Assembly: GCF_040954835.1 (NCBI RefSeq)
Contig: NC_090706.1
Coordinates: 32,435,148 to 32,499,147, forward strand
Origin: Lepisosteus oculatus
Lineage: Eukaryota; Chordata; Actinopteri; Semionotiformes; Lepisosteidae
Length of the DNA: 64,000 nucleotides
Direction of reading: 5' to 3'
Both the position numbers and the translations under genes were made by a program. The notes under the pieces were generated by a model. It had not been told where the DNA came from, ran no database searches, and saw nothing but the letters and a program-made list of their open reading frames with translations. Positions within the stretch are counted from its first letter, which is position 1. Each line of letters begins with the position of its first letter. This document shows positions 40,101-43,100 of this stretch, in pieces.

Positions 40101-43100
40101 CTCTTTCAAAATGAGCAGGGCTGCTGGAATGGTACATATACACAAGGGGTATCCAATAAGTGTCAGAGACTTGTCAAATGTGACACACGTAAGGTTTTTT
40201 TTTTTATTGGAACTCCCTGACATCCCCACAAGCATGAACGCGGTCCCCTACAATATTAATAATTTCTGTGGCTCCTAGTCCACAGAAATGTTGCCTTCTC
40301 AGCAGTTTGTAGAAGTCTTGACAAGAGATTGAAGGTGCCAAGTCTTATAGGTATCATAACAGTATCAGTGTATCCACAGCACTTTGAGATTTATGTTTTT
40401 AAAAGGACACATTAGTGCATTCACATTATGTAATAATATAATCTATTCCCTTCACCCAGTTTTGTCACACTCAACACTTAATGAATGCCCCTTTGTAAGC
40501 TCATATACAGTACTTTACATTTATGGTTTATTTTTAAGCTGCCGGAAGATCCTGGAATAAAAAGTGCATGAACTGCGGCACGTGCCACAGAAACGTGATT
40601 AGTGCTCGGCTTCCTGGTGCTGTATGGTTTTCACTCGATGAACTTTAGACATCTCCATTCAGCTGATCCTCAGCACACTGGGCCAGCTATTCAGGGCAGA
40701 AACTGAAGACCACGCTTACTGACATTTATTATTGTGATTCTAAGTAAACACACCTTAAAATTAATCCCTGTGCAGAAATGTAGTTCACTGTGAAGAGTTT
40801 ACCAAGCACTTGGGAGACGGGCTCAACCACGCAACAGAATTTCACAAAAACAAAGGTTATTGTGAGGTGATGTGAGAAATCTGATTAAAATGCTGGACCA
40901 TTTTAATTTTAATTTTATCTTGATTAAAATTATGGACTATTTGTGCCATAATTTTAAATTTGTCCCCAGAAGCACAAGGATTTAAGATTTTAATATAAAC
41001 ATTTATAATAATATTAATTTATATGGTACCAGCATATAAGTGAATTTTAATAATATATAAGTACTATATGCAGAATTACTGTGCATATGTATCTTATAAT
41101 TATCACTGTAATAGTGATAGAAAAGCAAAATGAGATCAGTCATACAGTACTGTGTATCTCACAAGAACTCTGGTCATGATAGTAAGAAGGTAAAGAAAAA
41201 TAGACAAATAATACAGTAAATTGCATTTTTAGCATAGAATTTCCAAATGTAATTGTTTTTCTTTGCAGATTACCACTGAATTATTTGAGTCTTCCAAAGA
41301 GTAATCATTCTAATACTACACCTCAGAGCACTCAGAGCTCCTGGGTCTTGCTTATTTGGCTGCTTACACAGTGAATGACCACTTTCTCCTCAGATTTCAA
41401 TCTCAGGGTGGTTAAGTCAAAAAAAGATTCAGCATACCCCTACCTTCACACCATCATTCTTCTTATTAGCCACACTTTTAGCTCCTGAATAAGAAATAAG
41501 GAAAAACAGTGAGACCAGAAAAGGCACAGATGCCCAAAACATGAAGGCAAATGGCATTGTGAGCAAGTTCAAAAGATCAAACATTAAACTTGCAAAGACT
41601 TGGAAAATCCACAGTGATCCCAGGAGACTAAACAAAAATAATTTCTCTGTTGCCGTAGTCCTTTTTGAAGATATTTTTTTTTTCTTTTCAAGGATACAGT
41701 CACATCAGGATGCAGGGGATTGTGTTACATATGGTAAACACTTTTGCAGAACTAGTTTGTTTTCAGAGTGTTCAGAGCAAAAATAAGCGTTGAGCAAGAA
41801 AGTTTTTGTCCCATTAAAAAAAAATCCACACAGAAAAATGTAAAAAAAACTGAGGTAGCCACCTGTATCAATCATTATGAGCTCAAAAAGAGGTCATAAT
41901 AATTAAGACTGGAATTATAACAAAAGTTCAAGAGGCCTCCCTTGTATAAGAATGCCTGATTAATTTGCACCATGTCCAGTTCAGCTGACAGTCATGTCCT
42001 GTTACATTGTCTCTCCTTCAGGACTGTTTGTTTTATAAGACACTTTAAAGTGCTGAGCTAGGATATTTCCTTTTTTATTTTAATCAACGCTTTGCTAATT
42101 TTAGCTCTGCCTTGACTGGGTCACGTGGATGCTCATTCTGGAAGCAAATATAGGCCTATCAACAGCCTGAATGCCTGGAGAACCTTGATCCCTGGGGCCA
42201 TGGATACAGTTGGAAAAGCAGATAAGGCCTGACTATTTGGGCATCCTCTGGATGTGAGCCACAGCGTAATTCAAGTAGTTCACAATGAACAAGGGCAACA
42301 GATTTGCCCATTAGTCTGTTTAAGGTGGTATAAATAGAGTAACAGTAAGCTGGCTGTAAATCTCTTTATGTGCTTATGCACAGCATAAGTAAAAATTATT
42401 TAAACCGATGCTTCTTGCACCACAGGCAGAGGTTTAATTTACATGAATATCCCCTAGAACACTGAACAGCTTCTATTCTTAATGCCAAAAACTTAACACT
42501 GTTAAAGAAAGCCCTGCACTTGCCTTTTAATGTTCTGACAAATTAACAGGGACTTGAAACTGTTTGCACTCTAGTATTGTACAGCAAGGTTTAAGAGAAT
42601 GCCAGTCCTGCCGATTATGGAAATAAATACTGAGACGATATTTGCAATTGGGTTTAGAATAGTATCACTTTACTGCGTGAATTTGTACATTTCCTTGCTC
42701 TCATTTTGTGCGCCAAAACATAAAAACATATCTGTGGCAAAAGTTTATGATGTATATTCAGTTTATTTTACTGCAGAGTGGCATGGCTAATGTTTATAAA
42801 GGAAAGTCCATTTTGAATAAAACTAAATATACAATATGTATAATTTTACTTGCAGTAAAATTCTCATTTCTCTGTATTATAAGTGAGAGATACATAAATA
42901 ATTTCAGAGGGAGTTTGATGTTATTTAGTGATTGTGGTACTCCTGAGACAGTGTGCTCTCAGACTGCTAAGTTGAGATGCATTATGACCCAAATATGAAT
43001 GCATTCAACATATACAGGATCTCATCTGTCCATCATCTTTGAGTATTTGAAACAAGAACTAGTCCCCAGAGAACTATGGGGACTAAAACTTCCCTATTTA

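Follow-up and report, generated by a model that had tools for sequence, protein, structure and literature searches.

The reading frame of exon v2 of camk2a in Lepisosteus oculatus continues without a stop upstream of its splice acceptor, where it encodes a short hydrophobic anchor fused to the v2 peptide, and the frame is, judging from its sequence, probably an orthologue of mammalian alphaKAP. The best explanation for what is seen in the window (the whole analysed stretch of 64,000 nucleotides) is that it contains the alphaKAP unit of camk2a, an orthologue that would be made from an internal promoter; we give this reading a probability of about 85%. It is preferred because a real frame lies at the v2 boundary, because camk2a alone among four CaMK2 loci has it, and because it matches, in register, the presumed N-terminus of mammalian alphaKAP. 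Such a nested gene had been proposed in an earlier note on this DNA. The frame, its place at the v2 boundary and its restriction to camk2a have stood; the match is to a presumed mammalian sequence, and the promoter, transcript, tissue and localisation of this putative alphaKAP are what we infer.

Structure of camk2a and its open frame upstream of exon v2

The exons of camk2a were mapped with a human CaMKII alpha sequence as the query. The gene lies on the minus strand, as do all of its features given below, and its exons are matched one after another between about 58.4 kb (kinase) and 28.6 kb (hub); since the match to human CaMKII alpha starts at residue 89, the map covers what follows the first kinase exons. 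Kinase exon 12 (44389..44431, its peptide plus a G) ends in AACTTTTCGG, followed by GTAAGT with the donor GT at 44388-44387, and intron 12 extends from 44388 to 41485; the borders of both were set by eye. The kinase acceptor for v2 is the AG at 41486-41485 with its pyrimidine tract, in which the pyrimidine fraction is 0.88 at positions -20 to -5 and 0.80 over 45 bases. Acceptor and tract together (41485..41509) read ctgtttttccttatttcttattcag followed by GAGCT, and alphaKAP would read through them. Exon v2 itself (41444..41484, mapped by protein match), with a donor GTAGGG after it, would be common to the kinase and alphaKAP.

The frame of v2, which was called exon 13 when it was first claimed to stay open upstream of its acceptor, indeed runs for 73 codons without a stop into intron 12, reaching 41704, and 41444-41635 gives a stop-free translation into v2. 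Since the last base of exon 12 and the last base of the intron are both G, the junction reads GAKS in the spliced kinase and in the unspliced anchor frame alike, GGA GCT AAA coding for G-A-K in both. In-frame ATGs are found 33, 24 and 19 codons 5' of GAKS, at 41584, 41557 and 41542. The ATG at 41557 has an A at -3; a T occupies this position at 41542 and at the alternative upstream ATG (41582..41584). From the best-placed ATG, at 41557, 24 mostly hydrophobic residues are joined through the acceptor AG to the v2 peptide. The putative anchor coding stretch (41485..41557) consists of these 24 codons, read by translation, and the first base of GGA, and for the kinase it is the 3' end of intron 12. 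A single-sequence structure prediction for the 38 residues of anchor plus v2 places a helix at residues 3-35, with a mean pLDDT of 86.5. Hence the direct fusion of a short hydrophobic anchor to the v2 peptide, also part of the original proposal, is borne out by translation, hydropathy and helix prediction.

Downstream of the anchor frame, and in frame with it, camk2a encodes the CaMKII association (hub) domain. The nuclear-signal exon v3N (39775..39807, with AG and GTGAGT borders in the sequence) is available to alphaKAP in the window, and it is followed by exon v6 (39246..39294; 16 residues plus a G, placed by protein match), by hub exons h1 (33399..33474) and h2 (30934..31028), both with borders set by eye, and by hub exon h3, whose matched part covers 28601..28825 (protein match). 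The hub region matches CaMKII_AD of Pfam with an E value of 4.1e-65. Among solved structures the alpha subunit is the best match at 313.7 bits, and the top delta chain among the matches listed reaches 273.3. Passages of PMC5882894 describe exon v3N and its nuclear signal, and discuss v3N in fish CaMKII beta. The v2, v3N, v6 and hub exons are the same as those of alphaB CaMKII, a kinase with the v3N nuclear signal; in contrast to the proposed anchor protein, alphaB retains the kinase and removes the anchor stretch by splicing.

Openness and hydropathy of the acceptor frame

That the frame is open and hydrophobic is by itself weak evidence for an anchor, since F, L, S and V are what pyrimidine tracts code for. 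An intron end that is open by luck, and hydrophobic merely through its polypyrimidine tract, would have both properties, and the other acceptors of the gene lend this explanation some weight. The 13 others that were tested average +0.80 in hydropathy versus +0.09 for the background, figures that are approximate because the averages skip stops and because several of the 13 frames were started from tblastn edges, which miss the true border by a few codons. The v2 acceptor ranks first of the 14 tested, in openness (73 codons) as well as in hydropathy (+1.66), and the v3N acceptor is second in both, with 59 open codons at +1.47. The v3N acceptor frame (39808-39984), open and hydrophobic with no in-frame ATG, serves as a negative example for the pyrimidine-tract effect. 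The chance background was taken from the gene strand beyond the mapped exons, where 29,595 positions were scored: a frame open for at least 73 codons occurs at 1.3% of them, an open frame with an ATG 20-30 codons upstream at 4.5%, and a hydropathy as high as that of the anchor stretch at 1.5%. The stronger evidence comes from the contrast with the paralogues and from the in-register match to the presumed mammalian N-terminus.

The anchor in the CaMK2 family and beyond

The unduplicated vertebrate CaMK2 set has four genes, and zebrafish has more. The last hub exon is found at four places in the Lepisosteus genome (1.2 Gb, 813 contigs), a count that is consistent with a non-teleost fish but no proof of one. 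Of the 22 matches to the regulatory exons, the strong ones, at E 1.6e-17 or below, mark four loci, all of which also have the next exon; the rest are at 3.4e-9 or weaker and lie on other loci. Exons v2 of the other three CaMK2 genes (C1, C2 and C4) were located and are alike in position and sequence type, but they have no open anchor frame upstream, the in-frame extension meeting a stop after 4, 8 and 10 codons. At E <= 0.001, a search of all 1.2 Gb places the anchor peptide at a single site. Taken together, the one match and the early stops in three paralogues indicate that the open anchor is specific to camk2a and is no family-wide accident of v2 acceptors.

Ten planctomycete loci (L002-L011) with relatives of the CaMKII hub domain, at 42-52% identity in the best segment, were found in the scan of genome contigs; the matched part of the query begins at residue 67 or higher in nine of them and at residue 37 in the tenth, and the anchor is covered by none. 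The scan of viral contigs for relatives returned one pattern match and no relative, and Rfam at gathering thresholds gave no match.

Comparison with the mammalian N-terminus

The comparator for the anchor was the N-terminus of mammalian (mouse) alphaKAP, presumed here to be MLLFLTLWALVPCLVLLTLYFLSST. With the two Met residues paired, the peptide from the window falls in register with this sequence, and the two have W-A-x-V-P-x-L-V-x-L in common. At offset 0 there are 9 identities in 24 residues, against at most 5 at 13 other offsets (-6 to +7). In permutations with the Met and the composition held fixed, 198 of 100,000 attained the alignment score and 25 of 100,000 the identities seen over residues 1 to 20, which number 8. 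The 9 identities over 24 residues were attained in 151 of 200,000 permutations. The anchor also scores highest against this comparator (28; next 23) among 1,315 ATG-started stop-free stretches of 24 codons, drawn from both strands of the window and from six paralogue stretches. A full-text literature search for the first nine letters of the comparator found no paper. The match is a short one, and with statistics in its favour it makes homology of the two anchors a lead.

The likeness to mammalian alphaKAP lies in a hydrophobic N-terminus of near-equal length at the same exon boundary, the mammalian letters being presumed; the difference is that 9 of 24 anchor residues are identical to the presumed peptide, and that what is seen here is DNA. 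These comparisons weigh against luck. The in-register match persists at fixed composition, the paralogous frames stop at once in all three cases, and the anchor is 24 residues long versus 25 for the presumed mammalian one, so that we regard a chance origin of the frame as improbable. Even more improbable, in our view, is a relic, in which the frame was inherited from an ancestral alphaKAP and its expression was lost in this species. Against it, the 24 codons contain neither stop nor frameshift, the acceptor is intact, and the downstream exons are present.

Candidate promoter and leader

Signs of an internal promoter in intron 12 are weak, and they were recognized in the sequence post hoc. Two weak candidate elements came from a motif scan: a MEF2-type site, CTAAAATTAG (42095..42104), and TATAAAA (42031..42037), a possible TATA box. 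On the gene strand of the intron, the former (42104) starts 67 bases 5' of the latter (42037), an arrangement noticed after the fact. Such a pair also arises in 81 of 5,000 introns simulated with a first-order Markov model, and the one pair on the gene strand compares with three on the opposite strand of the window. The motif census of intron 12 gave, versus expectation from window density, 1 MEF2 site (1.6 expected), 4 TATA boxes (8.0), 20 E-boxes (15.0) and 4 CASSTG motifs (3.2), with no CArG (0.2) and no MCAT (1.4); census and simulation both used 44386-41486 as the intron, which omits its first two bases on the donor side and its last base on the acceptor side. With MEF2 and TATA below window density, the census offered nothing usable as promoter evidence.

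A transcript that began close to the TATA box would have seven or eight ATGs 5' of 41584. This weighs against the preferred reading and favours a variant of it, overlapping with it, in which the leader is itself spliced: a non-coding exon from further upstream would be joined to an acceptor shortly 5' of the ATG, and contiguity with v2 would be limited to the coding part. A possible acceptor for such a leader, TTATTTTTGTTTAG followed by TCTCC and ending at 41628, was picked out by eye, but when AGs in 42100-41558 were screened for pyrimidine-rich sequence before them (cut 0.70), 41881 alone passed and 41628 failed. Further in favour of the spliced leader, a passage of a human muscle CAGE study (PMC9308330) places CAMK2A among the genes with newly annotated start sites, which were verified by coverage and first-exon junctions, although the passage does not specify the CAMK2A transcript. 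That start site, its transcript unnamed there, fits alphaKAP. On this evidence a spliced leader is possible but less likely than not.

Other features of the window

Downstream of camk2a, at 585-18038 on the minus strand, lie tandem copies of an Ig-domain gene about 10 kb apart, resembling SLAM/CD48/2B4; 298 nt at 6715 and 16790 are 93% identical between copies, and the V-set, Ig_3 and Receptor_2B4 matches all fall under the curated cut-offs. A stretch of 84 nt occurs in three copies (1395-1478, 13340-13423 and 16670-16753; spacings 11945 and 3330), two of them with 86% and 89% identity to the third, the reference; it may be a fragment of some dispersed repeat. On the plus strand, 4825-5136 is an open frame of 103 aa that by eye is like a piece of a hAT/ZBED-type transposase; it has no Pfam match at E 0.01.

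Discussion

According to PMC5882894, alphaKAP is made in mammals from an alternative promoter of the same gene and has the association domain in full; the view given there is that it targets CaMKII to the sarcoplasmic reticulum membrane of muscle. The Lepisosteus unit agrees with this in the association domain and may do so in the promoter, and its exon v3N agrees with the NLS that alphaKAP contains according to PMC6288437. A role in acetylcholine-receptor stability is ascribed to it in part of PMC7916148. Contrary to the alternative-promoter account, a passage of the review PMC9913510 presents alphaKAP as a splice variant with a lipid tail; the account of PMC5882894 was adopted here. For fish, no statement on alphaKAP was found in the search listings and literature passages covered, a body of text that lies apart from subscription papers and database predictions, so that annotation of the protein in some fish may exist there; PMC12037915 contains both terms, alphaKAP and zebrafish.

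The preferred reading treats alphaKAP as a gene nested within camk2a. A promoter inside intron 12 would give an mRNA that lacks the upstream donor exon, and the acceptor at 41485 would consequently be left unspliced. Translation would start at the ATG at 41557, as its context suggests, and the 24 residues would form a membrane helix that leads straight into exon v2 in the kinase frame; the reading would continue through v3N, or directly to v6, and then through the hub exons. The product would be a kinase-less CaMKII hub with an N-terminal membrane anchor, and, if it behaves like its mammalian counterpart, it would join full-length subunits in the holoenzyme and tether them to membranes in muscle. 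For the kinase, the bases that encode the anchor would be intron and supply the polypyrimidine tract and the acceptor.

The likeness in place and order to the mammalian alphaKAP start suggests that the gene-within-a-gene predates mammals. The nested gene is probably older than mammals, a view that we base on the presumed mammalian peptide and on inference. We propose more tentatively, at somewhat less than even odds, that the anchor was born from, and is still coded by, the polypyrimidine tract of a working acceptor, and that this double duty predates the split of ray-finned fishes and tetrapods. In that speculative scenario, which we hold with equal reserve, an internal promoter would have converted the intron end to coding sequence, an acceptor for the brain kinase becoming a helix for the muscle protein as well. 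Pyrimidine tracts may then quite generally have hydrophobic N-termini on offer where promoters arise within introns.

AlphaKAP itself is already known; what deserves attention is that the same DNA would serve as splice acceptor and as coding helix. If the frame is ancient, alphaKAP would be a nested gene across bony vertebrates and no mammalian oddity, and fish muscle would provide a system for studying how membranes and neuromuscular junctions retain CaMKII. The frame would further offer a clean case of one stretch of DNA under dual constraint, as a splice acceptor and as the coding sequence of a membrane helix.
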